A stretch of DNA of 33,859 nucleotides from Myxococcales bacterium. Its GTDB lineage: Bacteria > Myxococcota > Myxococcia > Myxococcales > JAKAPL01. Position numbers and translations under genes: made by a program. The DNA is taken from NCBI GenBank assembly GCA_021783235.1, contig JAJXUD010000019.1, forward strand, positions 1-33,859, in the 5' to 3' direction. The notes under the pieces were generated by a model, which was given only the letters and a program-made list of their open reading frames with translations, searched no databases and had not been told where the DNA came from. Shown here piece after piece: positions 3,120 to 15,949 of this stretch. The first letter of the stretch is position 1; every line of letters starts with the position of its first letter.

Positions 3120-3923
3120 ATGGAGACGCTGGGACTCATCGCCGGCAACGGCCGACTTCCTTTCGCGCTGGCGCGCGCCGCGCGGGCGGCCGGCTTTCGC
3201 GTGGTGGCGGTGGGCCACGTGGGCGAGACCGATCCCGCGCTCGAGGGAGAGGTCGACCGGCTGGGCTGGGTCCGCCTGGGGCAGCTCCGCCGCATCGCCG
3301 CCGAGCTGCGGGGCGAGGGGGTGGGCAAGGCGCTCCTCGCCGGCGGGCTGCGCAAGGCGAGCTGGTTCTCGGGGGCCCGCCCCGACCTCGCCGCGCTCGG
3401 GCTCCTCGCGAAGCTGCGCGCCCGGGGTGACGACGGCCTGCTGCGCGCCATCGCCGACTGGTTCTCGGAGCAAGGGGTCGAGATCGTCCCGCCCCACGGG
3501 TTCGTGCCGGGCTGCTTCGCGGCCGAGGGGGCGCTCGCCGGCCCCCCCGCGGACGACGAGGCGCTCGCCGACGCGCGCGAGGGGATCCGGATCGCGCGGC
3601 TCCTCGGCGCGGCGGACGTGGGCCAGACGGTGGTGCTGCGCGAGGGGGCGGTGGTGGCCGTCGAGGCGATGGAAGGCACCGACGCCTGCATCCGGAGGGC
3701 CGGCGAGCTCGTCCCGGGGGCGGTGGTCGTCAAGTGCGCGAAGCCCGGCCAGGACCTCCGCTTCGATCTGCCGGCGGTGGGGCCGGGCACCGTCGCGGCG
3801 CTCGCGGCGGCGAAGGCCCGCCTGCTCGCGCTGGAGGCCGGGGCGACCTTGATCCTCGACCGCGAGGAGCTCGTCCGCGACGCCGGGCGGGCGCGGATCT
3901 CGATCGTGGGGATCGCCGGGTGA
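3120..3923 (+). CDS. lpxI: UDP-2,3-diacylglucosamine pyrophosphatase LpxI
   Basis: LpxI hydrolyses UDP-2,3-diacylglucosamine to lipid X and UMP, the fourth step of lipid A synthesis, in organisms that lack LpxH. The 267-residue product begins METLGLIAGNGRLPFALA, the conserved LpxI/DUF1009 opening. It carries the C-terminal motifs ADVGQTVVLREGAVVAVEA, EGTDACIRRAG and KCAKPGQDLRFDLPAVG, with family-typical length. The ATG at 3120 fits the conserved N-terminus; an ATG at 3072 would add 16 non-conserved residues. It is the first gene of the envelope operon and overlaps lpxB by four bases. The 77-base gap to the divergent lipoprotein must hold the operon promoter; a possible -10 box TAAGAT lies at 3068-3073, but no convincing -35 was seen. 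Confidence 0.95.
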   Translation: METLGLIAGNGRLPFALARAARAAGFRVVAVGHVGETDPALEGEVDRLGWVRLGQLRRIAAELRGEGVGKALLAGGLRKASWFSGARPDLAALGLLAKLRARGDDGLLRAIADWFSEQGVEIVPPHGFVPGCFAAEGALAGPPADDEALADAREGIRIARLLGAADVGQTVVLREGAVVAVEAMEGTDACIRRAGELVPGAVVVKCAKPGQDLRFDLPAVGPGTVAALAAAKARLLALEAGATLILDREELVRDAGRARISIVGIAG

Positions 3924-5125
3924 GCGCGGCCGTCCTCGCGGAGGCCGAGGGGCGCGGCGCCGCGTCGGAGGCGGGGCCGCTCTTTCTCGTCGTCGCGGGC
4001 GAGGCCTCGGGCGACCTGCACGCGGCCGCCGCGGTGCGGGCGCTGCGCGAACGCTGCCCCACGGCGCGCTTCACGGGCATGGGGGGAGAGAAGCTGCGCG
4101 ATGCCGGGGTCGAGACGATCTACGACGCCGCCGAGGTGTCGGTGATGGGCATCAGCGAGGTCCTCGGCCGGCTGCCCCGTATCCTCGGGGCGCTGCGCGG
4201 CCTCGCGCGGCTCGCCGAGGAGCGGCGTCCCGCCGCGGCGCTGCTCGTCGATCTGCCCGACTTCAACCTGCGGCTCGCGAAGCGGCTCAAGCGGCTCGGC
4301 GTCCCGGTGATCTACTACGTGAGCCCGATGGTCTGGGCCTGGCGGCCGCGCCGAACCCGGGCCATCGCCCGCTCGGTGGATCGGCTCCTCTGCATCTACC
4401 CGTTCGAGGAGCCGTTCCTGCGCGAGCGCGGCGTCGAGGCGACCTACGTCGGCAACCCGCTCCTGGACGAGCCGCCGCCGGCGCGAGAGGGCGAGGGGGC
4501 GCGCCGCGCGATCGGCCTCGACCCCGGCGCGCGCACGCTGGCGCTCCTCCCCGGCAGCCGCGAGAGCGAGGTCGAGCGGCTCTTCCCCTCGATGCTGGCG
4601 GCGGCCGAGCGGCTGCAGCGGAGCGACGGGCCGCTCCAGCTCGTCGTGCCGGTGGCGCCCACGGTCGACGCCTCCCGGCTCGAGCGGCTCGCCTCGGCGC
4701 GCGGCTTGAACGTCCGCTTCCTGCGTGGCCGGACGGCGGACCTGCTCGCCGCCGCCGACGCGGCCATCGTCGCGAGCGGCACCGCGACGCTCGAGACCCT
4801 GCTCGCCGGCCGGCCGATGGTGGTGGTCTACCGGGTCTCGTGGCTCACCTGGCTCGTGGGGCGGCTGCTCGTCCGGGTGTCGCACGTCGCCATCGTGAAC
4901 CTCCTCGCGGGGCGGCGCCTCGTGCCCGAGCTGCTCCAGCGCCAGATGACCCCCGCCGCGGTGGCCGAGGCGCTCCGCTCGGTCTGGCTCGACGCCGGCC
5001 GGCGCGCCGAGCTGCTCGCGGGCTACCGCGAGGTCCGCGATCGGCTCGGCGGCGCCGGGGCCTCGGGTCGGGTCGCCGCCGCGCTGCTCGAGGCGGCCCG
5101 TGACCCCGCGGCTGTCCCGAAGTAG
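3920..5125 (+). CDS. lpxB: Lipid-A-disaccharide synthase LpxB
   Basis: LpxB (GT19) joins lipid X and UDP-diacylglucosamine into the lipid A disaccharide at the cytoplasmic face of the inner membrane. The 401-residue product has VAGEASGDLHA at the start, then VMGISEVLGRLPRI, DLPDFNLRLAKRLK, YYVSPMVWAWRPRR, YVGNPLLDE, LALLPGSRESEV and the nucleotide-binding ASGTATLETLLAGRPMVVVY, all in family order. The GTG at 3920 overlaps the lpxI stop (GTGA) and is the first plausible start. Consecutive action of LpxI and LpxB explains the coupling. Confidence 0.97.
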   Translation: MSAAVLAEAEGRGAASEAGPLFLVVAGEASGDLHAAAAVRALRERCPTARFTGMGGEKLRDAGVETIYDAAEVSVMGISEVLGRLPRILGALRGLARLAEERRPAAALLVDLPDFNLRLAKRLKRLGVPVIYYVSPMVWAWRPRRTRAIARSVDRLLCIYPFEEPFLRERGVEATYVGNPLLDEPPPAREGEGARRAIGLDPGARTLALLPGSRESEVERLFPSMLAAAERLQRSDGPLQLVVPVAPTVDASRLERLASARGLNVRFLRGRTADLLAAADAAIVASGTATLETLLAGRPMVVVYRVSWLTWLVGRLLVRVSHVAIVNLLAGRRLVPELLQRQMTPAAVAEALRSVWLDAGRRAELLAGYREVRDRLGGAGASGRVAAALLEAARDPAAVPK

Positions 5126-5137
5126 ACTTGCGGCGCC

Positions 5138-5908
5138 TTGAGCCCCCCGATTCGAGAGCCGGCGCGCGACGCCCTGGTGATCCTGCCGACCTACAACGAG
5201 GCGGAGAACCTCGAGCCCATCGCGCGCGCCATCTGGGCGGCGACCCCGCGCTGCGACGTGCTGGTCGTGGACGACGGCTCGCCGGACGGAACGGGGGCCA
5301 TCGCCGATCGGCTCGCGCTGGAGAGCCCCCGGCTGACGGTCCTCCACCGCGAGCGCAAGGAGGGGCTCGGGCGCGCCTACCTCGCGGGCTTCGCGCTGGC
5401 GCTCGAGCGGGGCTACCCCTTCGTCTTCGAGATGGACGCTGACTTCTCGCACGACCCGGCCTACCTGCCGAAGCTGCTCGACGCCGCCGAGGGCGCCGAC
5501 CTCGCCATCGGCAGCCGCTGGGTCGAGGGCGGCGGCACCCGCCACTGGGGAGTCGGGCGCCAGGTCGTCTCGCGGGGTGGCAGCCTCTACGCGCGGACCA
5601 TCCTCGGCGCCCCGGTGCGCGACCTGACGGGCGGCTTCAAGTGCTTCCGGCGGGAGACGCTCCTCGCGCTCGATCTCGGCTCGGTGCAGAGCAACGGCTA
5701 CTGCTTCCAGATCGAGCTGACGTACCGCGCGCTCGCGCTCGGGCTGCGCGTGCGCGAGGTGCCGATCGTCTTCGAGGACCGCCGCGTCGGGCAGAGCAAG
5801 ATGTCGCGGCAGATCTTCCTCGAGGCGGTCGGCATGGTCTGGAAGCTGCGGCTCGGCCGTCGGGCCTTCCTCGAGCGGGCGAGGAGCGCCCGCCCCGCGG
5901 CCACGTGA
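5138..5908 (+). CDS. Polyprenol-phosphate mannosyltransferase-like GT2 (DPM synthase family)
   Basis: A 256-residue GT2 glycosyltransferase that transfers a sugar from a nucleotide donor to polyprenyl phosphate. It shows LPTYNEAENL, the VVDDGSPDGT nucleotide-binding loop, the EMDADFSHDP metal site, GSRWVEGGGTRHWG, DLTGGFKCFRRE and EVPIVFEDRRVGQSKMS, a diagnostic series for the dolichol-/polyprenol-phosphate mannose synthase family. There is no C-terminal membrane domain, as in short DPM1-type enzymes. The start is a TTG at 5138 without a clear ribosome site, 12 bases after lpxB. Being in the lipid A operon suggests it supplies a lipid-linked sugar for envelope glycans or protein glycosylation; substrate unknown. 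Confidence 0.9.
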   Translation: MSPPIREPARDALVILPTYNEAENLEPIARAIWAATPRCDVLVVDDGSPDGTGAIADRLALESPRLTVLHRERKEGLGRAYLAGFALALERGYPFVFEMDADFSHDPAYLPKLLDAAEGADLAIGSRWVEGGGTRHWGVGRQVVSRGGSLYARTILGAPVRDLTGGFKCFRRETLLALDLGSVQSNGYCFQIELTYRALALGLRVREVPIVFEDRRVGQSKMSRQIFLEAVGMVWKLRLGRRAFLERARSARPAAT

Positions 5909-6561
5909 GCCCCGTGCGCGAGGTCGTGAGCTTTTCGCTCGTGACCTTTACCGGCATCTTCACGGTGGTCGACCCGCTGAGCGCGGTGCCGCTCTTCGTC
6001 GCCATGACCCGGCGCGACGGGCCGGAGGCGAGGCGCGACATGGCGCGGCGCGCCTCGGTGGCGGCCGCGCTGATCCTCTCGGCGTTCGCGCTCGCCGGCG
6101 GCCTTCTGTTCAAGTTCTTCGGCGTCACCTTGCCGGCCTTCAAGATGGCGGGCGGGCTCCTGCTCTTGCTCATGGCGATCGACATGCTGCGCGCCCAGAC
6201 CTCGCGCGTCCGATCGAGCCCCGAGGAGGCGGCCGAGGGGGCCGAGCGCGAGGACGTCGCCATCTTTCCGCTGGCGACGCCGCTGCTCGCGGGGCCGGGA
6301 TCGATCGCGACCACCATGGTCTTCATGGGTCGCTCCACCGCCTGGTGGCAGGCGATCCCGGTGGTCGGCGCGGTGCTGCTCACCTGCTTCCTCGCCTATT
6401 GGCTCCTGCGCGGCGCGACGCTCATCGATCGGCTGCTCGGCAAGACCGGCATGAACGTGCTGAACCGCGTCATGGGGCTCATCCTCGCCGCCATCGCGGT
6501 GCAGTTCATGTTCGACGGGATCGCCGGCGCCTTCCCGGGAATCGCCGGGCACGGCGCGTGA
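5905..6561 (+). CDS. MarC-family integral membrane protein
   Basis: A 218-residue protein with six hydrophobic segments and the MarC signatures TVVDPLSAVPLFVAMT in the first helix pair and FPLATPLLAGPGSIATTMV in the middle, at the family's usual length (about 200-220). MarC proteins (UPF0056) are inner-membrane proteins of unsettled function; the original antibiotic-resistance link is not upheld. The start GTG at 5905 overlaps the upstream stop by four bases; a GTG at 5914 is also possible. It is coupled to the transporter gene that follows. Confidence 0.93.
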   Translation: MSPVREVVSFSLVTFTGIFTVVDPLSAVPLFVAMTRRDGPEARRDMARRASVAAALILSAFALAGGLLFKFFGVTLPAFKMAGGLLLLLMAIDMLRAQTSRVRSSPEEAAEGAEREDVAIFPLATPLLAGPGSIATTMVFMGRSTAWWQAIPVVGAVLLTCFLAYWLLRGATLIDRLLGKTGMNVLNRVMGLILAAIAVQFMFDGIAGAFPGIAGHGA

Positions 6562-8339
6562 CGGCCCGCCGCGCCCTCGCGCTGCTCTCGCCCGAGCTCG
6601 CCTCGCTCGTCCTCGCGATCGCCTGCATGGCGGTCTTGACCGCGACGACGGCGGCCGGCGCCGAGCTCGTCGGCCCGGTGCTCCACGGGCTCGTGACCGG
6701 CGACCTCTCGGCCAGGTCGAGCTGGCTCGCGCGGCTCTTGCCGGCCCACCGGCTCCGGGACGACGCCTGGTTCGTGCCGGCGCTCCTCGTCGGGCTCGCC
6801 CTCGTGAAGGGGGGCGCCTACTTCGGGCAATTCTTCCTCGTCGGGATGGCCGGGCAGCGGGTCGCGAGCCGGCTCCGGTCGCGGCTGCTCTCCGCGCTCG
6901 TCGAGGCCGGCCCCGCTTTTTTGGCCTCGCAGCGGACCGGGGACCTCCTCACCCGGCTCTCGAGCGACGTCGGCGCGGTGGAGCTCGGGGTCACCTACGC
7001 GCTCGCCGCCTACGTCCGGGACACGCTCACCGCGCTCGTGCTCTTCGGGCTCTGCCTCGTCCTCGACTGGCGGCTCTCGCTCCTCGCCTTCGGCCTCCTG
7101 CCGCTCACGGTGGGGCCGCTCGTTCGACTCGCGCGCCGGCTCCTCAAGGCGACGCGCCGGGTCCAGGCGCGGCAGAGCGATCTCGGCCAGAGCCTCGCCG
7201 AGGGGCTGCAGGGGCTTCGGCTCGTACAGGTGGACGGGCTCGAGGGGCGCGAGACCGATCGGTTTCGGCGGCTCTCCCGGGAGCAGCTGCGTGACGAGCT
7301 GCGCGTCGCCCGGCTGCGCGCGCTCGGGAGCCCGCTCATGGAGGTCGTCGCGGTGCTCGGCCTCTGCCTCATGCTCTGGGTCGCGGCGACCGAGGTGGCG
7401 CGCGGAAGCCTCTCCCCCGACCACCTCGTCTCGTTCCTCGCCGCGGCGCTGCTGCTCGCCCAGCCGCTCAAGTCGCTCGGCAAGGTGGGGCCGCTCGGCA
7501 CCTCCGCGCTCGCGGCGCTCGAGCGGCTGTTCGAGACCGAGGACGCCGCGCGCCGCCACGCGCCGAAGCTCTTCGAGAGCCCCGAGGCCGTCGCCCCGGG
7601 CTTCGAGGAGCTCGCCTTCGAGGGGGTCTGGTTCCGCTACTCCGAGGAGGGCGACTGGCTGCTCCGGGGGCTGGATCTGCGCCTGCGGCGCGGCGAGCGG
7701 CTGGGCCTCGCGGGGCCGAGCGGCTGCGGCAAGACGACGCTCGTCTCGCTCTTGCTCGGCCTGCGGGCGCCGTCGCGCGGCCGGATCTGCCTGAACGGGC
7801 GCGATCTCGCCGAGCTGCCGCTCGGGATCCGCCGCCGGCTCCTCGCCTGGGTCGGCCAGGAGGCGCTCCTGCTCGACGCGACCGTCGCCGAGAACGTCGC
7901 CCTCGGCGTGGCGGTCGAGCCCGCGCGGCTCGAGGCGGCGCTGCGCCGCGCCGGCGCCTGGGAGCTCGTCGGGCGCCTGGGCGGTCCGGGCTCGCGCGTC
8001 GGCGAGCGCGGCGCGCGGCTGTCGGGCGGCGAGCGGCAGCGGCTCTCGATCGCGCGGGCCTTCTACCGCGATGCGCCGCTCCTGCTGCTCGACGAGCCGA
8101 CGAGCCAGCTCGACGCCGAGACCGAGCGCCGGGTTGGCGAGGCGCTCGAGGGGCTGCTCGCCGACCGGACGGCGCTCGTCGTGGCGCATCGGCCGGCGAC
8201 GCTGCTCGGCTGCCACCGGGTCGCGCTCCTCGACGGCGGTCGGATCGTCGAGGAGGGCTCCCCGCGGGAGCTCGCGGCCTCGGGGGGGGCGTTCGCGCGG
8301 CTCTTGCGGACGGCCGCGCCCGCGCCGAGGGCCTCCTGA
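6558..8339 (+). CDS. msbA: MsbA-like lipid A export ABC transporter (half-transporter)
   Basis: A 593-residue ABC exporter with a fused six-helix membrane domain (about residues 10-310) and nucleotide-binding domain (about 350-590). The NBD shows Walker A GPSGCGKTT (387-394), Q-loop WVGQE (431), signature LSGGERQR, Walker B LLLLDEPTSQLD (508-519) and H-loop VAHRP. Family length and position between lipid A and Kdo genes argue for flipping of lipid A-core across the inner membrane. The GTG at 6558 overlaps the marC stop by four bases. A different lipid or peptide substrate cannot be excluded from sequence alone. Confidence 0.9.
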   Translation: MTARRALALLSPELASLVLAIACMAVLTATTAAGAELVGPVLHGLVTGDLSARSSWLARLLPAHRLRDDAWFVPALLVGLALVKGGAYFGQFFLVGMAGQRVASRLRSRLLSALVEAGPAFLASQRTGDLLTRLSSDVGAVELGVTYALAAYVRDTLTALVLFGLCLVLDWRLSLLAFGLLPLTVGPLVRLARRLLKATRRVQARQSDLGQSLAEGLQGLRLVQVDGLEGRETDRFRRLSREQLRDELRVARLRALGSPLMEVVAVLGLCLMLWVAATEVARGSLSPDHLVSFLAAALLLAQPLKSLGKVGPLGTSALAALERLFETEDAARRHAPKLFESPEAVAPGFEELAFEGVWFRYSEEGDWLLRGLDLRLRRGERLGLAGPSGCGKTTLVSLLLGLRAPSRGRICLNGRDLAELPLGIRRRLLAWVGQEALLLDATVAENVALGVAVEPARLEAALRRAGAWELVGRLGGPGSRVGERGARLSGGERQRLSIARAFYRDAPLLLLDEPTSQLDAETERRVGEALEGLLADRTALVVAHRPATLLGCHRVALLDGGRIVEEGSPRELAASGGAFARLLRTAAPAPRAS

Positions 8340-9329
8340 GTGCGCAAGGGCCTTGCCGCCTGCGCGGTCGCCCTCGCGGCGCTCGGAGCGCGCTGGGCCT
8401 TCGTCGCCTCCGCCCGCCTCCCCGCCGCCGTCGATCGCCACCCGGAGCCCCGCGGCGTCTTCCACGTCCACACGACCCGCTCGGACGGCCGCGGCACGGT
8501 GGACGACGTCGCTCTCGCCGCCGCGGCCGTCGGGCTCGACTTCGTCGTCCTCACCGATCACAACGTCGCGCCGCTGCCCGCCGAGCGCCGGCACGGCGTC
8601 CTCCTGATCTACGGCGAGGAGCAGTCGCTGCCGGAGGGGCACCTCGTCACCCTCGCGGCCACGGGCGGCGAGCTGCGGCTCTTCGCCCACCCGCTCAACC
8701 GGCGGGTGCCCTGGCGCGAGCTCTCGGAGCCGGCCGACGGGATGGAGCTGCTCTCGTGGGACGACTTCTGGCGCGAGGCGCTCCGCCCGCCGTGGGGCCG
8801 GCTGCTGCTCGCGTTCGTCGACGCCCCGGCCTCGATGCTCTACGGGGTCTACGACCTCTTCCGGCGGCCGGTGGAGGCGCTCTCGGCTTACGACCGGCTG
8901 CGGCCGGGGCGACCGGGGTTCAGGGGGCTCTGCTCGGTCGACGCGCACGGGCTTCCCGGCTACGCGACCTCGTTCCAGTCGCTCCAGATCCACCTGCCGG
9001 GGCTGCGCCTCTCCGGCGACGCGGCGAGGGACGCCCTCGCGGTCGCGGATGGTCTGGCCCGGGGACCGCTCTACTGCGGCCTCGACGGGGTCGCGAGCGC
9101 CTCGGGGCTCGGCTTCGCGCCGGTCCCCGGCGGCACCGAGCTGCGGGCGCCGCCGGTCGGCTTTCCCGCCGACGCGCGGGTGGTCACCTTCTGTCGCGGC
9201 GCGGTCTCGGCCGAAGGGCCGCTGCCCGTCCGCGTCCCCCGCGGCTGCCGAGCCGAGATCCGGCTGCCGGAGCTCCAATCCCGCTGGCCCGCCAGCGGGG
9301 GAAGCTGGATCTACGCGGACCCACCCTGA
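8340..9329 (+). CDS. PHP-domain metal-dependent phosphoesterase, membrane-anchored or secreted
   Basis: A 329-residue PHP-superfamily protein. An N-terminal hydrophobic stretch (residues 4-25) looks like a signal anchor. The metal site is well preserved: H42-x-H44 in FHVHTTRSDG, D73-H74 in LTDHN, E93 in YGEEQS, H117 in LFAHPLN, and D201/H203 in SVDAHG. PHP enzymes hydrolyse phosphate esters using two or three metal ions. The start GTG directly abuts the msbA stop with no gap. Nothing identifies the substrate. Its place between msbA and waaA suggests a phosphate group on lipid A, Kdo or a carrier lipid, which is inference only. Confidence 0.85.
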   Translation: MRKGLAACAVALAALGARWAFVASARLPAAVDRHPEPRGVFHVHTTRSDGRGTVDDVALAAAAVGLDFVVLTDHNVAPLPAERRHGVLLIYGEEQSLPEGHLVTLAATGGELRLFAHPLNRRVPWRELSEPADGMELLSWDDFWREALRPPWGRLLLAFVDAPASMLYGVYDLFRRPVEALSAYDRLRPGRPGFRGLCSVDAHGLPGYATSFQSLQIHLPGLRLSGDAARDALAVADGLARGPLYCGLDGVASASGLGFAPVPGGTELRAPPVGFPADARVVTFCRGAVSAEGPLPVRVPRGCRAEIRLPELQSRWPASGGSWIYADPP

Positions 9330-9379: not shown

Positions 9380-10687
9380 GTGCACCTCCTCTACCAAGTC
9401 GCCTCGCTCGCGCTCTTCTCGGTCCTCTGGCCGTTCCTCTTCGTCCACCCGAAGCTGCGCCACGGCATCCGGCAGCGGCTCGGCTTCTTCGGCGGCCCGA
9501 TCTGCCCGGACGGGAGGGGGCCTCGCATCTGGCTCCACGGCGCCTCGGCGGGCGACCTGCTGGCCCTGACGCCCGTGATCGACGGGCTGCGGCAGCGCTT
9601 CCCGGGCTGCACCCTGGTGGTGTCGACGCTCACGAACTCCGGGCAGCTCATGGCGCGCCAACGCATCCGGGGCGTCGACGCCGTCATCTACCTGCCTTAC
9701 GACCTGCCGGGCGCGACGCGGCGGACGATCGCGGCGGTGAGGCCGGACCTCCTCGTGCTCGAGTACACCGAGATCTGGCCAGGACTCATCCGGGCGGCGC
9801 GGCGGGCCGGAGCGCGCATCGCCCTCACGAACGGCCGCTTCTCGGCCCGGCACCTGCGCGAGTACCGCTGGCTCTTCCGGCTGATCGGCAACCCCCTCGG
9901 GGAGATCGACCTCTTCCTGATGCGTGAGGACGTCGAGGCGGAGCGGGCGCTGGCGCTCGGGGCGCCGCTCGAGCGAGTCTGGGTCACCGGCAACACGAAG
10001 TTCGACGCGCTGCTCTTCTCGGGCCAGGGGCCCGCGCCCAAGGCCGGGGGAGGCGTGCCTTCGCTGGACGAGGCGTTGAGCGGCGACGGGCCGCTCTGGA
10101 TCGCGGGCTCGACGCACGAGGGGGAGGAGGCGCTCCTGCTGTCGGCGTTCGGCCGGCTCCGCCAGGAGCAGCCGAAGCTCCGGCTCGCCATCGCGCCCCG
10201 TTACATCGAGCGGGCGGGGAAAATCGTGGCGCTCGCCCGCGAGCACGGCTTTCGGGCCCGCTTCCGGTCGGAGGCGCCGACGCCGGCCGACGTCGTGGTC
10301 CTCGACTCGATGGGCGAGCTCGGGCAGGCCTACCGCCTCGCCACCCTGGTCTTCGTGGGCGGCTCCTTCACGCAGAGGGGCGGCCAGAACATCCTGGAGC
10401 CCGCGGCGGCGGGCAAGCCGGTCCTCTTCGGCCCCAACATGGACAACTTCCACGACAGCGTTCAGGTGCTCGTGGGCCGGGGCGGCATCCAGGTGAAGGA
10501 CGAGGAGCAGCTCCATCGGGTGGTGAGCGACCTGCTCCTCCGTCCCGACCAGATGGCCGAGCTCGGCGCCATGGCCCGCGACGCGGTGGCGGCGGTGCGG
10601 GGCGCGGGGCAGCGGGACGTCGAGCAGCTCGCCCGGCTCCTCGTCGAGCGGACAGAGGGGCACCCGGACGGGCGGCGCGCGGCGTGA
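9380..10687 (+). CDS. waaA: 3-deoxy-D-manno-octulosonic-acid (Kdo) transferase WaaA/KdtA
   Basis: WaaA (GT30) adds Kdo from CMP-Kdo to lipid IVA at the inner membrane. The 435-residue product has an N-terminal hydrophobic anchor (LLYQVASLALFSVLWPFLF), then RQRLGFF, WLHGASAGD, VVSTLTNSGQLMA, LEYTEIWPGLI, TNGRFSARHL, VTGNTKFD, WIAGSTHEGEE, FVGGSFTQRGGQNILEP and FGPNMDNF, all in GT30 order. The usual SxGE catalytic glutamate is an aspartate here (residue 59). The start is GTG at 9380, 50 bases after the PHP gene, with no clear ribosome site. It overlaps the next gene by four bases. Confidence 0.94.
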   Translation: MHLLYQVASLALFSVLWPFLFVHPKLRHGIRQRLGFFGGPICPDGRGPRIWLHGASAGDLLALTPVIDGLRQRFPGCTLVVSTLTNSGQLMARQRIRGVDAVIYLPYDLPGATRRTIAAVRPDLLVLEYTEIWPGLIRAARRAGARIALTNGRFSARHLREYRWLFRLIGNPLGEIDLFLMREDVEAERALALGAPLERVWVTGNTKFDALLFSGQGPAPKAGGGVPSLDEALSGDGPLWIAGSTHEGEEALLLSAFGRLRQEQPKLRLAIAPRYIERAGKIVALAREHGFRARFRSEAPTPADVVVLDSMGELGQAYRLATLVFVGGSFTQRGGQNILEPAAAGKPVLFGPNMDNFHDSVQVLVGRGGIQVKDEEQLHRVVSDLLLRPDQMAELGAMARDAVAAVRGAGQRDVEQLARLLVERTEGHPDGRRAA

Positions 10688-11673
10688 CGCTCGGGCGGAT
10701 CCTGATCGTCCGGCTGACCGCCCTCGGCGACGTGCTCCTCGCGACGCCGCTCGCGCGGGCGCTGCGCCGAGCCCAGCCCGCTGCCGAGATCGACTGGCTC
10801 GTGGCGCCGCCCTTCACGCCGCTGCTCGAGGCGAACCCGAACCTCTCGCGAGTCTTCCCGGCGGAGCGCGGCGTGGCCGCGCGGCTGCGGGCACGCCGCT
10901 ACGATCTCGTGCTGGATCTGCAGAACAAGCCGAGGACGGCGCTCTTGCGCGCGAGCCTCGGCGCTGCCCGGGTGGTGAGCCTGCGCAAGCGGACCTTCAG
11001 CGGGGCGATCGCCTCGCTGCTCGGCCGCGAGCGGCCGGCGACCGAGCCGCACGCGGTCGAGCTCTACCTGTCCCTGGCCGCGCGGCTCGGCGTCGCGTCG
11101 GCCGGCACGCGGCTCGACCTCGTGATCCCCGAGCGGGCCCGGCTCGAGGCGGCCCCGCTGCTCTCCCGCCGCGGCGCCGCTTCGCTCTGGGGCCTCGCCC
11201 CCTCGACGCGCTGGGCGACCAAGCGCTGGCCGATCGAGCGCTTTCTGGAGCTCGGCCAGGCGGCCGAGGAGCGCGGCGCGAAGCTCCTCTTGCTCGGCGG
11301 CGCCGCCGACGGCCCGACGCTCGACGCGCTCTCAGCCCGCCTCGGCTCGGCGCTGCTCGGCGACACGCGGGCGCTCGGGACCGGAGGACTCGCGGCGGCG
11401 ATCGAGGCCTGCGACCTCGTGGTCGCGAACGACTCGGGGCCGGCGCACATCGCGGCGGCGCTCGGTCGAAAGCTGGTCGTTCTCTTCGGCCCGACCGCCC
11501 CCTCGCGCTGGGCGCCGATCGGGTCCGACGTCGAGCTGCTCTACCGGGGCCTGCCGTGCAGCCCCTGCAGCAACCACGGCTCCGCTCGCTGCCCGCTCGG
11601 GACGCACGCCTGCCTCGCCGAGATTCCCGCGAGCGAGGTGCTCGCGGCGGCCTCGCGGCGGTGGGCATCGTGA
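10684..11673 (+). CDS. GT9 heptosyltransferase (WaaF/WaaC type)
   Basis: A 329-residue GT9 enzyme that adds heptose to the inner core. Motifs are LIVRLTALGDVLLATP at the start, LDLQNKPRTALL, LAPSTRWATKRWPIERF, and the donor-binding VANDSGPAHIAAALG. The C-terminal Cys cluster CSPCSNHG...CPLGTHACL is typical of WaaF-like heptosyltransferases. Start GTG at 10684 overlaps the waaA stop. It fits an enzyme acting immediately after Kdo addition; whether it adds the first or second heptose cannot be decided. Confidence 0.92.
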   Translation: MTLGRILIVRLTALGDVLLATPLARALRRAQPAAEIDWLVAPPFTPLLEANPNLSRVFPAERGVAARLRARRYDLVLDLQNKPRTALLRASLGAARVVSLRKRTFSGAIASLLGRERPATEPHAVELYLSLAARLGVASAGTRLDLVIPERARLEAAPLLSRRGAASLWGLAPSTRWATKRWPIERFLELGQAAEERGAKLLLLGGAADGPTLDALSARLGSALLGDTRALGTGGLAAAIEACDLVVANDSGPAHIAAALGRKLVVLFGPTAPSRWAPIGSDVELLYRGLPCSPCSNHGSARCPLGTHACLAEIPASEVLAAASRRWAS

Positions 11674-12704
11674 GCCTGCGCGATCGGGTCGAGCGGCTGC
11701 TCGAGCGGCTCTGGAGCCAGCCGCTCGAGCCGCTCGCCTGGCTCATCGTCTGGCCGCTCGGGCTCGCCTCCATCGCGACGCGCCTCGCTGGACGGCGACG
11801 GCGACGCCGGTCGCGCGCCGCTCCCGCGCTTCCCACCGTCGCGATCGGAAACCTCCACGCGGGCGGGACGGGCAAGACCCAGGTCGCTCTCGAGCTCTGC
11901 GCTCGCACCCTCGTCGAGGGGCGCTCGCCCGCGGTCGTGCTGCGGGGCTACGGCGGAAGCGAGCGCGGGCCCGCCGTCGTGGGGCCCTCGGGTGACGCCG
12001 CCCGCTTCGGAGACGAGGCCCTGCTCCTCGCCCGCCGCTGCCCGGGGGCCCTGGTCGTCGTCTCCCGCGACCGCGCGGCGGGGATCGCGCTCGCGGCGGG
12101 GCGAGGGGCGGATCTGGCCCTGCTCGACGACGGGCTGCAGCAGCGGGACGTCGAGCCCTCTCGCAACCTGGTGCTCTTTCCGGCCGAGTCGCCGCTCGGG
12201 AACGGCCACCTCCTGCCGCTCGGTCCGTTGCGCGAGCCCCTCGGCGCGATGCCTCGCGAGCGGCTCGTCTGGCTCCACGGCGAGGGCGCCGGCGAGCCGC
12301 CTTTCGAGGTCGACGTCCGCTCCGTGAGCGTGCCGGTCGGCCTCGTCCCCTCGGGCGACCTCGGCGCGGCCCCCGCTCCCTTCGCGGGGCTCCGGATCCT
12401 CGCCTTCTGCGGGATCGCCCGGCCGGCCCGCTTCTTTCGAACGCTCGAGATCGGCGGCGCCGAGCTGGCCGGCCGCGTCGCCTTCGGCGATCACCGCCGC
12501 TTTCGGCCCGCGGAGCTCGTGGCTCTCGCGGCGAGGGCCCGGGAGGCGGGCGCGGGCGCGCTCTGCTGCACCGAGAAGGACGCCGTCCGCCTGCCGAGCA
12601 TCGAGCTCGCCGTCCCGATCCTCGCGCTGCGGGTCTGCTTGCGCCTGATCTCGGGCGAGCCCTCGGTGCGCCGGATCGTCGGCGCCGCCCGTTGGCCCGC
12701 ATGA
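11670..12704 (+). CDS. lpxK: Tetraacyldisaccharide 4'-kinase LpxK
   Basis: LpxK phosphorylates the 4' position of the lipid A disaccharide at the inner membrane. The 344-residue product has an N-terminal membrane-associating stretch (PLAWLIVWPLGLASIATRL), the Walker A AIGNLHAGGTGKTQ (58-71), VVLRGYGG, GDEALLLARR, LALLDDGLQQRDVEPSRNL and GNGHLLPLGPLREP, followed by AFCGIARPARFF and CTEKDAVRL. The start GTG overlaps the heptosyltransferase stop (GTGA). It is the last gene of the operon, and its stop codon lies in the left arm of a terminator-like stem-loop. Confidence 0.96.
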   Translation: MSLRDRVERLLERLWSQPLEPLAWLIVWPLGLASIATRLAGRRRRRRSRAAPALPTVAIGNLHAGGTGKTQVALELCARTLVEGRSPAVVLRGYGGSERGPAVVGPSGDAARFGDEALLLARRCPGALVVVSRDRAAGIALAAGRGADLALLDDGLQQRDVEPSRNLVLFPAESPLGNGHLLPLGPLREPLGAMPRERLVWLHGEGAGEPPFEVDVRSVSVPVGLVPSGDLGAAPAPFAGLRILAFCGIARPARFFRTLEIGGAELAGRVAFGDHRRFRPAELVALAARAREAGAGALCCTEKDAVRLPSIELAVPILALRVCLRLISGEPSVRRIVGAARWPA

Positions 12705-12749: not shown

Positions 12750-13952
12750 CTAGAAGCGCGTGTGGGCGAGGACGTCCTGGGCGATCGGGTGGAGGCGGGG
12801 TCCAACGTCGGCGGCGGACGGCGGTGGGGGGGGCTCGGCGACGAGCTCGCTCGGCTCGCCGGCCGCGATCTTCCGGGCCTCCTCGACGAGGACGGCCTCG
12901 AGCTCGTCGGCCGGCATCCGCTTGACGAGCCTCCCCTTCTTGAAGAGGACGCCGACCCCGCCGTGGCCATAGGCGATGCCGATGTCGGCCTCCTTGGCCT
13001 CGCCGGGACCGTTGACCTCGCAGCCCATGACGGCCACGTGGACGTCGCCCGCGATGACCTGGAGCTTGCGCTCGACGCGCTCGGCCACGGGGATCATCTC
13101 GACGGAGCAGCGGCCGCAGGTCGGACAGGCCACGAAGGTGAGGCCGCCGTCGCGCAGCCCGAGCGACTTGAGGAGCGAGACGCCGACCTTGACCTCCTCG
13201 ATCGGATCGGCGGCGAGGGAGATGCGCAGCGTGTCGCCGATGCCCTCGGCGAGGAGGATCGCGAGACCCGCCGCGCTCTTCACGCTGCCGGTCTGGAGGG
13301 TGCCAGCCTCGGTGATGCCGAGGTGGAGCGGGTAGTCGAACGCCTGCGACGCCAGCCGGTAGGCCCGCACGGCGGTGGGCACGTCCGAGGCCTTGAGCGA
13401 GATCTTGATGTCGAGGAAGCCCTCGTCCTCGAGCATCCGGATCTCGTCGCGGGCGCTCTCGACCATGGCCTCCGGCGTGGCGCGTCCGTACTTCGCGAGC
13501 AGGCGCTTCTCGAGCGAGCCGGCGTTGACGCCGACCCGGATCGGCACCCCCCGCTCCTTCGCGAGCTTTGCCACCTCGCGCACGCGGGCCTGGCCGCCGA
13601 TGTTGCCGGGGTTCAGCCGGATCCCTTGGACACCTTGGAGGAGCGCCTCGAGGGCGAGGCGATGGTCGAAGTGGATGTCCGCGATGAGCGGGATGTTGAT
13701 CGCCCGCTGGAGCGAGCCCAGGTTCGCGGCGGCCGTCTTGTCGGGAACGGCCACGCGCACGATGTCGGCCCCGGCGGCCTGGAGCTGCCGGATCTGGTCG
13801 GTGCAGGCCGCGAGGTCGCGGGTGTCCGCGGTCGCCATCGTCTGGACCGAGATCGGCGCGCCGCCGCCCACCGCGAGGCGGCCGAGCCGAATCTGGCGCG
13901 TCTGCCGCCTCGGCGCGAGCGGCCGGCCGGCCTCCGCGTCGTGCAAGCTCAC
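12750..13952 (-). CDS. ispG: 4-hydroxy-3-methylbut-2-en-1-yl diphosphate synthase IspG
   Basis: IspG is the [4Fe-4S] enzyme that converts MEcPP to HMBPP in the MEP isoprenoid pathway. The 400-residue product contains APISVQTMATADTRD, ADIVRVAVPD, PLIADIHFDHRLAL, GIRLNPGNIGG and LHLGITEAGT. The cluster ligands are C276 and C279 in ACPTCGRC, C311 in MGCEVNGPGE and E318, spaced as in E. coli (C270, C273, C305, E312). A Pro-rich tail (EPPPPPSAAD) extends the C-terminus. The start GTG at 13952 overlaps the stop of the upstream thioredoxin-like gene. Confidence 0.96.
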   Translation of the reverse strand: MSLHDAEAGRPLAPRRQTRQIRLGRLAVGGGAPISVQTMATADTRDLAACTDQIRQLQAAGADIVRVAVPDKTAAANLGSLQRAINIPLIADIHFDHRLALEALLQGVQGIRLNPGNIGGQARVREVAKLAKERGVPIRVGVNAGSLEKRLLAKYGRATPEAMVESARDEIRMLEDEGFLDIKISLKASDVPTAVRAYRLASQAFDYPLHLGITEAGTLQTGSVKSAAGLAILLAEGIGDTLRISLAADPIEEVKVGVSLLKSLGLRDGGLTFVACPTCGRCSVEMIPVAERVERKLQVIAGDVHVAVMGCEVNGPGEAKEADIGIAYGHGGVGVLFKKGRLVKRMPADELEAVLVEEARKIAAGEPSELVAEPPPPPSAADVGPRLHPIAQDVLAHTRF

Positions 13953-14968
13953 CGGGACTTCTCGGCGAGGGCGCGCTCGATCGCGCCGTGCAGCTCGTCG
14001 TAGGAGGTCGCGCCCGAGAGCGGGCGGCCGTTCACGAAGAGGGCAGGGGTCCCGTCGACGCCGGCCTGCTCGCCGGCGTGCAGGCTCCGCTCGATGCGCG
14101 CGTGGGTGTCGGCCGCGTCCAGGCAGGCGGTGAACTTCTGGCCGTCGAGGCCGAGAGCGTGGGCGTAGCCTTGGATGGCCTCCTGCGAAAGGGCGTGCTG
14201 GTTCTCGAAGAGCTTGTCGTGCATCTTCCAGAACTGGCCCTGGGCATCGGCGCAGATCCCCGCTCGGGCGGCCCGATCGGCGTCGGGGTGGATGTCGAGC
14301 GGGAAGTCGCGGAAGACGAGCCGCACGTCCTTGGGGAAGTCGGCGAGGATTCGGTGGAGGGCCGCCTCCTGGCGCTGGCAGTAGGGGCACTGGAAGTCGG
14401 AGAACTCGACGATCGTCACCTTCGCGCCGGCAGGACCCTTGGAGGGGCCGTCGGCGGCCACCTCGACGCGCGGCGGCTCGATCAGGACCTCCACCTTCGC
14501 CTCGCGCTTGAGCTTCTGGAGGAAATCGACGATCGCGTCGCGGCGCCGCTCCTGCACGAGCTGCTGGGCGATCTGGTCGTGGACGTCGGACAGCTTGTAG
14601 CCGGAGCTCGCGACCCGGGCATCGTAGTAGGCCTGGATCTCCTTCTCGGTCGGTGGCGTCGCCCGCCGGCTCACCTCGTCTTGAAGGAGCTTCTCGGGGG
14701 TGACCTTGCGGCGGGCGGCCTCGCGCTCGACGAGCCGCTGGAGGATCATGCCCTCGAGCGCGTCGCGCCGAAGGTCGTAGAGCTGCTTCGCGAGCTTGGG
14801 CTTGCCGGCGATCTCTCGGTCGAGCTCGGCCTCGGTGACGGGGCCGTCCACGGTGGTCGCGACGACGGCAGAGGAGGGCGACGGGGAGACGCGGCCGGCC
14901 GGGGCGGCGGTGGCGCAGGCCGAGAGCGCGAGGAGCGAGGCGAGGCGCAACACGAGGGGGATCTTCAT
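13949..14968 (-). CDS. DsbA-like thioredoxin-fold lipoprotein with foldase-like N-terminal region
   Basis: A 339-residue lipoprotein (lipobox LSAC, Cys18). Residues about 40-165 are charged and helical (EAELDREIAGKPKLAKQL, then REAARRKVTPEKLL), resembling the SurA/PpiC-type chaperone N-terminal region. Residues 175-335 form a DsbA/DsbG-like thioredoxin domain with CPYC at 194-197 and the cis-proline GTPALFVNGRP. It should act in the periplasm as a thiol oxidoreductase or isomerase. It lies 48 bases downstream of lpxC and overlaps ispG by four bases, so it may be in one transcript with both. The peptidyl-prolyl isomerase domain of full SurA is absent. Confidence 0.88.
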   Translation of the reverse strand: MKIPLVLRLASLLALSACATAAPAGRVSPSPSSAVVATTVDGPVTEAELDREIAGKPKLAKQLYDLRRDALEGMILQRLVEREAARRKVTPEKLLQDEVSRRATPPTEKEIQAYYDARVASSGYKLSDVHDQIAQQLVQERRRDAIVDFLQKLKREAKVEVLIEPPRVEVAADGPSKGPAGAKVTIVEFSDFQCPYCQRQEAALHRILADFPKDVRLVFRDFPLDIHPDADRAARAGICADAQGQFWKMHDKLFENQHALSQEAIQGYAHALGLDGQKFTACLDAADTHARIERSLHAGEQAGVDGTPALFVNGRPLSGATSYDELHGAIERALAEKSR

Positions 14969-15005: not shown

Positions 15006-15027
15006 AGGCGGCTTTTCTACGCCGCCT
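15006..15027 (-). terminator. Stem-loop over the lpxC stop codon
   Basis: AGGCGGC (15006-15012) and GCCGCCT (15021-15027) are perfect 7-base arms around an 8-base loop that contains the lpxC TAG. There is no T run after it in the lpxC direction, so it may only attenuate transcription into the downstream genes or protect the 3' end. Confidence 0.35.
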
Positions 15028-15949
15028 GGCCTTCGAGGACTCCCCAGGAGGGCGGCAGAATCGACATCCGCTCGAGCTGTTTCTTCTCGCGGACCTCGAC
15101 GATCTCGGCCGCGCCCGGCTCCGAGACGAGCCGGCGGACGAGCTTCTGGTTCAGCGCATGGCCGGACTTGTACGAGACGACGTGGCCGATGACCGGCATG
15201 CCGCAGAGCGCGAGGTCGCCGATGGCGTCGAGGATCTTGTGCCGGACGAACTCGTCCGAGTAGCGCAAGCCCTCGGGGTTCAGGATGTTGAAGTCGTCCA
15301 CCACGATGGCGTTGTCGAGCGAGCCGCCCCGAGCGAGTCCCATCCCCTTGAGCGCCTCGACGTCCCGCAGGAAGCCGAACGTCCGGGCGCGGCAGATCTC
15401 CCGGTAGAAGATCCGGTCGGAGAGCTCGACCTTGAGCTCCTGATCCTTGATGAGCGGGTGGTCGAAGTCGATGGTGCAGGAGATCGTGAACTGCGAGGCG
15501 GGCTGGATGGAGGCCCGCTTGCCGCCGTCGACGACCTCGACCGGGCGACGAACGACGAGGAAGTGCTTGAACTTTCGCTGTAGCTCGATGCCCGCCGTGC
15601 GGACGAGGTAGACGAACGGCGCGGCGCTGCCGTCGAGAATCGGGACCTCGGGGCCATTGAGCTCGACCCGAACGTTGTCGACCCCGAGCCCTGCGAGCGC
15701 CGCCAGCAGGTGCTCGACCGTGCCGACGCGGACGCCATTCTTGCCGAGGGTCGTCGCGAACGCCGTGTCGACGACGTTCTCGGCGCAGGCCCGGATCTCG
15801 ACCGCGGGGGAGAGATCGGTGCGGACGAAGGTGACGCCGCTGCCAGCGGGGGCTGGCCGGAGCGTCATCTCGACGTGGGCGCCGCTGTGAAGACCGATTC
15901 CCTGGCAGCCGACCGGGGCCTTGAGCGTTCTCTGGTTGAGCTCTGTCAT
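15017..15949 (-). CDS. lpxC: UDP-3-O-acyl-N-acetylglucosamine deacetylase LpxC
   Basis: LpxC is the zinc deacetylase of the committed step of lipid A synthesis. The 310-residue product has GIGLHSGAHVEMTLRPAP at the start, TVEHLLAAL with zinc ligand H80, EVPILDGSAAPFV, RTFGFLRDVE, and RHKILDAIGDLAL with ligands H237 and D241, plus the catalytic H264 in KSGHALN. Length and spacing match the family. The ATG has GAGGGA about five bases upstream. It stands apart from the main lipid A operon, at the head of a minus-strand run with the DsbA-like gene and ispG, and has a long leader region that could serve regulation. Confidence 0.97.
   Translation of the reverse strand: MTELNQRTLKAPVGCQGIGLHSGAHVEMTLRPAPAGSGVTFVRTDLSPAVEIRACAENVVDTAFATTLGKNGVRVGTVEHLLAALAGLGVDNVRVELNGPEVPILDGSAAPFVYLVRTAGIELQRKFKHFLVVRRPVEVVDGGKRASIQPASQFTISCTIDFDHPLIKDQELKVELSDRIFYREICRARTFGFLRDVEALKGMGLARGGSLDNAIVVDDFNILNPEGLRYSDEFVRHKILDAIGDLALCGMPVIGHVVSYKSGHALNQKLVRRLVSEPGAAEIVEVREKKQLERMSILPPSWGVLEGQAA

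Follow-up and report, generated by a model that had tools for sequence, protein, structure and literature searches.

Introduction

The PHP-fold enzymes with complete metal sites that have been studied mostly cut phosphate esters, nucleotidases and histidinol phosphatase among them. The known lipid A phosphatases, LpxE and LpxF, have the PAP2 fold. PMT_2 proteins belong to the GT-C class of glycosyltransferases, which use polyprenyl-phosphate sugars. The lipid A of Bdellovibrio bacteriovorus, after work by Schwudke in 2003, is said to be neutral, with mannoses replacing the phosphates (title cited in PMC7795004). In Myxococcus xanthus the single Kdo carries phosphoethanolamine and the lipid A fatty acids are branched (PMC12288465).

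Here we describe a PHP-fold protein encoded in a lipid A operon of a Myxococcales bacterium. The nearest studied kin that we found are the secreted PHP phosphodiesterases Sb-PDE and No-PDE (PMC5460133, PMC11656708), not lipid A enzymes. The likeness lies in the PHP fold and in the spacing of nine ligands: the trinuclear centre of No-PDE and of the structural relative 3E38 follows the pattern HxH, D five on, E-x6-H and DxH (PMC11656708). Unlike our protein, Sb-PDE and No-PDE are soluble enzymes of organophosphate breakdown, and the available text describes neither a membrane tether nor an LPS linkage for them. Sb-PDE is exported, its signal peptide being cleaved off, and is suspected of having a disulfide (PMC5460133, PMC11656708); it thus sets a precedent for an exported PHP phosphoesterase.

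Other described systems resemble the protein in single respects. Its best curated model is CehA/McbA (NF038032), whose namesake substrate is a carbamate: CehA is a carbamate hydrolase (PMC4850150), and carbaryl hydrolases carry export signals (PMC8292978). The best structural match, TM0559 (2ANU), is called only a predicted PHP phosphoesterase in its entry title. The PHP domain of E. coli Pol III has lost metal ligands and kept a structural role (PMC3666897); in ligand loss it is like some relatives treated below (L150, L152 and those of Bdellovibrio type), but it is part of a polymerase. LpxE and LpxF are alike in proposed place and substrate and differ in fold, and PAP2 genes are present separately in the same genomes. 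Literature searches, with subscription journals mostly outside their scope, returned, among the papers listed, no published report of an msbA-linked PHP gene or of the linkage itself; in the available part of PMC12419801 the only PHP passage concerns another gene cluster.

The PHP gene in its lipid A operon

The window, by which we mean the whole stretch of 33,859 nucleotides that was analysed, carries a run of lipid A and core genes on the forward strand (Table 1). A preliminary description of this DNA had placed a PHP gene between msbA and waaA, flush against msbA, and the arrangement was confirmed to the base: the msbA stop codon TGA occupies 8337-8339, the GTG start of the PHP gene follows on the very next base, and 50 bases separate the end of the PHP gene from waaA. 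The best NCBIfam match of the window's msbA was TIGR02203, at 391 bits and under the cut-off of 602. The lpxI gene, to which the same description had referred, was found upstream. A coding artefact was ruled out for the PHP gene by orthologues with the same fold residues across families of the order and phylum.

Beyond the lipid A genes the opposite strand carries lpxC (15017-15949), 2.3 kb past lpxK, side by side with genes for a DsbA-like thioredoxin protein (13949-14968) and GcpE (IspG; 12750-14390). The family 2 glycosyltransferase gene, which we take to be of Dpm1 type, and marC were also seen near lpxB/msbA in most of the Myxococcales loci read. The sole DUF374 (LpxJ family) gene of the window's genome lies away from the lipid A cluster (L161, G000:C19:512-700).

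Table 1. Features of the window and of the PHP-fold protein that it encodes.
Feature	Position	Strand	Basis or remark
lpxI (start approximate)	3120..3923	+	domain match
lpxB (start approximate)	3986..5125	+	domain match
Family 2 glycosyltransferase, presumed Dpm1 type, conserved in cluster	5138..5908	+	Glycos_transf_2 9e-30; synteny
MarC-family membrane protein (start approximate)	5938..6561	+	domain match
msbA-type lipid A flippase gene (start approximate)	6552..8339	+	directly 5' of PHP gene, zero gap
PHP-fold protein gene	8340..9329	+	329 aa, GTG start; ORF, PHP fold, orthologues
N-terminal membrane helix, residues 2-24, predicted signal anchor or uncleaved signal	8343..8411	+	model helix; hydropathy
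PHP domain, about residues 38-250	8451..9089	+	structure match 2ANU, 3E38
Metal ligands H42, H44, D49	8463..8486	+	invariant in alignment A1; No-PDE spacing
Metal ligand H74	8559..8561	+	alignment
Metal ligands E94, H101	8619..8642	+	E-x6-H spacing as in No-PDE
Metal ligand H117 (AHP motif)	8688..8690	+	alignment
Cys198, possible disulfide partner	8931..8933	+	invariant in A1
Metal ligands D201, H203	8940..8948	+	alignment
Cys246, possible disulfide partner	9075..9077	+	alignment A1
C-terminal beta-sandwich, about residues 250-329	9087..9326	+	weak structure matches
waaA, Kdo transferase	9380..10687	+	Glycos_transf_N 9.6e-51
Glycosyltransferase family 9 (heptosyltransferase type)	10684..11673	+	domain match
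lpxK (start approximate)	11670..12704	+	domain match

Fold, metal site and family membership

The predicted structure of the window protein (pLDDT 85, pTM 0.86) consists of the N-terminal helix, the PHP domain and the C-terminal sandwich. In VIA-align 2 its best match was 2ANU (Z 14.3, rmsd 3.0, 164 aligned, protein residues 34-250), followed by 3E38 (Z 14.1, rmsd 3.0, 174 aligned, protein residues 33-281). The sandwich gave weak matches to fibronectin-type and similar sandwiches, with Z 4.9 at best, and no lipid A enzyme was named among the 50 structural matches listed, an absence to which we give no weight. All nine metal ligands are present in PHP order and spacing, which bears out the full ligand set of the preliminary description.

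The Pfam PHP model (PF02811) matched weakly, at residues 41-77 with E 2.8e-4 and 21.7 bits, under the gathering cut-off of 26.4; it was matched at E 0.01 by 22 of 23 aligned orthologues. We assign the protein to the PHP superfamily because of its fold and ligands, with the Pfam cut-off not reached; on the modelled structure and the ligand set, it is a member. The best NCBIfam match, CehA/McbA metallohydrolase NF038032, reached 40.2 bits under a cut-off of 80. This model was matched at 1e-3 by all 23 aligned A1 orthologues, and four of nine PHP proteins scanned passed its cut-off (L037, L140, L144 and L036), with L150 giving no match. Scores straddled the value of 80: 81.0 for L037, the M. xanthus orthologue, 86.8 for L140, 73.4 for L101 and 45.1 for L142. 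A search of PHROGs with the window protein gave no match.

With a PHP fold in place of PAP2, the protein should not be classed as LpxE or LpxF, although its action may resemble theirs. As far as sequence features go, it combines a predicted N-terminal export signal with a complete PHP ligand set, as in the Sb-PDE type. In a tree of 48 rows the Myxococcota sequences formed no single supported clade against the other phyla.

Membrane segment, cysteines and topology

The N-terminal signal anchor of the preliminary description is borne out as a membrane segment: the model helix at residues 2-24 is the most hydrophobic stretch of the protein (Kyte-Doolittle 1.87 over 19 residues), the next being 1.72 at residue 54, inside the PHP core. 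Across relatives a hydrophobic N-terminal stretch exceeded the hydropathy mark in 76 of 79 rows, the three below it being L100, L147 and L150. Net charge averaged +1.7 before the stretch and +0.3 after it in 77 rows, and was higher before than after in 50 of the 77, a modest signal that 27 did not show. These 77- and 79-row sets were built without rows of doubtful start and without rows from the phylum of L097, a Syntrophobacterales genome. Starts were chosen by script and may be in error for L139, L148, L150 and L152, of which L150 and L152 were re-read from the lists of open reading frames.

Of 53 Myxococcota rows, 51 carry both Cys198 and Cys246, and the remaining two, L144 and L145, have the first only. 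Neither cysteine is present in eight rows from elsewhere or in 22 Bdellovibrionota rows. That the pair is kept or missing together fits a predicted disulfide, and thus a periplasmic location. Taking the N-terminal segment, the charge and the cysteines together, we favour a topology with the PHP domain on the periplasmic side, a lean that the missing charge bias in 27 of the 77 rows tempers.

Linkage in the Myxococcales

Some match at 1e-10 was present in 119 of 145 genomes of the order, with bit scores that split into full-length matches and short PHP matches. An orthologue of the PHP gene was counted in 90 of the 145, including one partial gene (G102) and one split in two frames (G112). In the latter (G112:C1:2572859-2573967) the split may be a frameshift.

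The waaA gene was found in 136 of the 145 genomes. In 80 of the 90 genomes with an orthologue, the PHP match stops 16-86 bases short of a waaA match on the same strand. Eight others have 0.8-2.8 kb between the two genes; six of these are from one genus, and in the one that was read an open reading frame intervenes (L135). In two genomes of the window's own family (G001 and G002) waaA lies on another contig, with the PHP gene still beside msbA. By rule, msbA is directly upstream of the PHP gene in 36 of 38 order loci, a set that includes some species twice. Rows L031-L049 and the G-handle loci overlap in species (L031 and L116, for instance), so that not all loci are independent. One locus missed by the rule (L100) has an adjoining msbA match, with an early stop in the frame followed. 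L102 keeps the PHP gene and waaA without an adjoining msbA.

The PHP gene is dispensable, because it is absent from 46 of the 136 waaA-bearing genomes and because msbA and waaA adjoin in 8 of 17 PHP-less loci read (L120, L121, L122, L125, L129, L131, L132 and L133; not in the other nine). Genomes with and without it occur even within one genus (G028 and G043). No PMT_2 match was found in 20 order loci (L099-L118). The window's genome has 14 PMT_2 matches, and none of eight such loci compared resembles the cluster PMT_2 proteins of other genomes at E 1e-3.

Linkage in other Myxococcota and other phyla

Beyond the order, a relative at 1e-25 or better was present in 14 of 50 further Myxococcota genomes, and 12 of these 14, spread over eight families, have it immediately after msbA. 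The exceptions are L151, and L141, in which on reading it follows another ABC ATPase gene. Measured from msbA, possible PHP starts are at -4 in L140 and L144, 2 to 4 bases downstream for L142, L143 and L145-L147, 15 bases downstream for L149 and 25 for L150; L139, L148 and L152 offer several possible starts. With msbA and waaA as its neighbours across order and phylum, in one or both cases, the gene's synteny clearly reaches beyond the window's genome, and an objection foreseen by the preliminary description falls away.

A gene of the DUF374 family, to which the lipid A acyltransferase LpxJ belongs (PMC6148475), comes next in six msbA-PHP loci (L140, L143, L146, L147, L148 and L150). Three loci, L140, L144 and L145, the last two from one genus, have PMT_2, msbA and the PHP gene together in this order, and tie the msbA-PHP and PMT_2-PHP arrangements to each other. 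A Dpm1-type family 2 glycosyltransferase gene was seen within many Myxococcota clusters.

A wider profile (A3) picked up relatives in 62 of 191 genomes from the phylum to which L054, from a Bdellovibrionaceae genome, belongs. From these 62 we examined 24 Bdellovibrionota-type loci, mostly the best-scoring (L170-L188, L220-L222, L053 and L054); the genome set groups L053 with the phylum of G195, yet the tree tool labelled it Myxococcota. A PMT_2-like (GT-C glycosyltransferase) gene lies directly upstream on the same strand in 20 of the 24, all except L172, L174, L176 and L220, and in 16 it overlaps the PHP gene by exactly 4 bp. For L184 an early start put the gene outside the distance rule. PMT_2 was named in these loci by tblastn similarity, and Pfam was run on the PMT_2 proteins of L053, L140 and L144. 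In 16 Bdellovibrionota-type loci, each up to 15 kb long, there was no match at 1e-3 to MsbA, LpxB, LpxI, LpxK, WaaA or DUF374; the neighbours there do not, therefore, imply lipid A.

Among six relatives from Acidobacteriota and Gemmatimonadota, none was read behind msbA (for L048 only 227 bases lie upstream). Two acidobacterial relatives (L036 and L050) adjoin phage-integrase-family genes, and two (L050 and L051) have an extra C-terminal stretch and are convergent with LptF/LptG genes; we read these neighbours as a hint at most. Matches in the phylum of L097, present in 19 of 297 genomes, were set aside, since none of the 19 loci had msbA or PMT_2 in flanks of up to 1.5 kb; the starts listed for them showed no plain membrane segment (row L191 is in the wrong frame).

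Decay of the metal site

Among the 53 Myxococcota rows, 51 have the complete set of nine ligands, and these include all 39 rows from the order. The two others, L150:8812-10056 (G189) and L152:8839-10194 (G149), have lost most ligands but retain their length, the linkage to msbA and the two cysteines, and in its C-terminal domain L150 is still close to its relatives. Loss is more widespread among the 24 Bdellovibrionota-type proteins, of which seven keep all nine ligands (L170, L177, L182, L184, L185, L053 and L054) and 17 do not (L171-L176, L178-L181, L183, L186-L188 and L220-L222, with G274 among the decayed). At the roughly 25% identity of this alignment single sites are unsure, and the motif stretches are plainly changed. 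Thirteen of the 17 decayed proteins are still encoded behind PMT_2, 12 with the 4-bp overlap. Judged from these alignments, some lineages keep the PHP protein without its usual metal site.

PAP2 genes in the same genomes

If the PHP protein removes lipid A phosphate, a genome in which its site has decayed may require a different phosphatase. Of 60 genomes tested, 59 had a PAP2 match, irrespective of the condition of the PHP gene, and the Myxococcota showed no separation. In the Bdellovibrionota group, the six genomes with an intact PHP protein had best PAP2 E-values of 6.9e-6 to 4.6e-23; among those with a decayed one, 12 of 13 had PAP2 at 1.4e-20 or better and one had none, a pattern that follows clades. 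A PAP2 gene at L148:5939-6487, between lpxB and a glycosyltransferase gene, belongs to a cluster whose PHP gene is intact.

Discussion

The protein described here has a PHP fold, a full ligand set and an N-terminal membrane segment, and its gene is tightly linked to msbA, waaA or, in relatives, PMT_2. Our leading interpretation, held tentatively and at somewhat less than even likelihood, is that of an exported, inner-membrane-tethered PHP hydrolase that would edit a phosphate on lipid A or on the inner core directly after the flipping step of MsbA. We arrive at it because the steady partner of the gene is the flippase in Myxococcota and a lipid-linked-sugar transferase elsewhere. The protein would work on the periplasmic side with a trinuclear metal site, and its substrate would be lipid A or the first core sugars, met just after MsbA flips lipid A. 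The most likely cut would be at a phosphate ester; this could be a monoester, or a diester of the kind by which phosphoethanolamine is attached, and the phosphoethanolamine on the Kdo of M. xanthus may be one such diester nearby. Removal of phosphate would change the charge of the molecule or expose a hydroxyl to which a GT-C transferase could add a sugar. The absence of PMT_2 from the 20 order loci means that this sugar-transfer part is not backed in the window's own order.

The preliminary description had proposed a periplasmic phosphatase of lipid A or of a carrier lipid. The place that it assigned holds, through the msbA/waaA linkage and the lean towards the periplasm, and the chemistry is plausible; side of the membrane, phosphate chemistry and a substrate in lipid A or core are what we infer. 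A simple enzyme fares less well. Ligands are lost in two msbA-linked Myxococcota and in 17 of the 24 Bdellovibrionota-type proteins, losses that count against a purely catalytic role since the gene is kept, and the gene itself is dispensable within the order. Also against our interpretation weigh the missing lipid A genes around the Bdellovibrionota-type loci, the PAP2 genes in 59 of the 60 genomes, and the position of the six Acidobacteriota and Gemmatimonadota relatives away from msbA. In relatives with a decayed metal site the protein would have to act non-catalytically, as a partner of MsbA or of a GT-C enzyme.

Such a role may be the conserved one throughout: the protein would be a periplasmic partner or stabiliser of MsbA or a GT-C glycosyltransferase, with a metal site that was inherited and then dropped by some lineages. 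L150 and L152 argue for this by what they retain, down to the C-terminal domain of L150, as do the decayed Bdellovibrionota-type genes that still overlap PMT_2, and the Pol III PHP domain provides a precedent (PMC3666897). Against it stand the nine ligands kept in nearly all Myxococcota rows and in seven of the 24 Bdellovibrionota-type rows, and we regard it as rather unlikely.

Phosphate editing of lipid A or core has a further competitor in a hydrolase that sits in the same place, has another chemistry or substrate (an ester, for example, or some soluble phosphate compound of the periplasm) and is in the operon purely for regulation. CehA/McbA is the best NCBIfam match, with four of nine scanned proteins past the cut-off, and the carbamate hydrolase CehA (PMC4850150) and the carbaryl hydrolases with their export signals (PMC8292978) also speak for it. 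Linkage to msbA or PMT_2, however, is seen repeatedly in two phyla and is often only a few bases wide, which is more than a loose regulatory grouping calls for; we think this account unlikely.

The polyprenyl carrier of the Dpm1-type and GT-C enzymes may instead be the substrate, as for a carrier-lipid phosphatase. This would draw on the Dpm1-type genes in many Myxococcota clusters and on the PMT_2 genes of L140, L144, L145 and the Bdellovibrionota-type loci, and it would also explain the PMT_2 loci without lipid A genes. Within the order, however, it is msbA and waaA that regularly flank the gene, the 20 loci are free of PMT_2 matches, and carrier phosphatases of other folds exist; we hold it to be very unlikely. 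A cytoplasmic nucleotide phosphatase is disfavoured by the N-terminal segment, present in 76 of 79 rows, and by the gene linkage.

Extending the phosphate-editing interpretation, one may picture a lipid A phosphate remover of PHP rather than PAP2 fold that acts right after MsbA in Myxococcota and their kin and opens positions to GT-C sugars, giving a less charged lipid A like the mannose-for-phosphate form reported for Bdellovibrio. In lineages in which another phosphatase stepped in, perhaps Bdellovibrio itself, the PHP protein would have decayed to a non-catalytic GT-C partner. We offer this as a conjecture and consider it distinctly unlikely as a whole.

The PHP gene is a tightly coupled partner of msbA in a phylum of social and predatory bacteria. 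If its product edits lipid A or core, it would represent a new class of enzyme for outer-membrane remodelling. The repeated loss of its metal site also offers a natural case in which to study the change from an enzyme to a partner protein.
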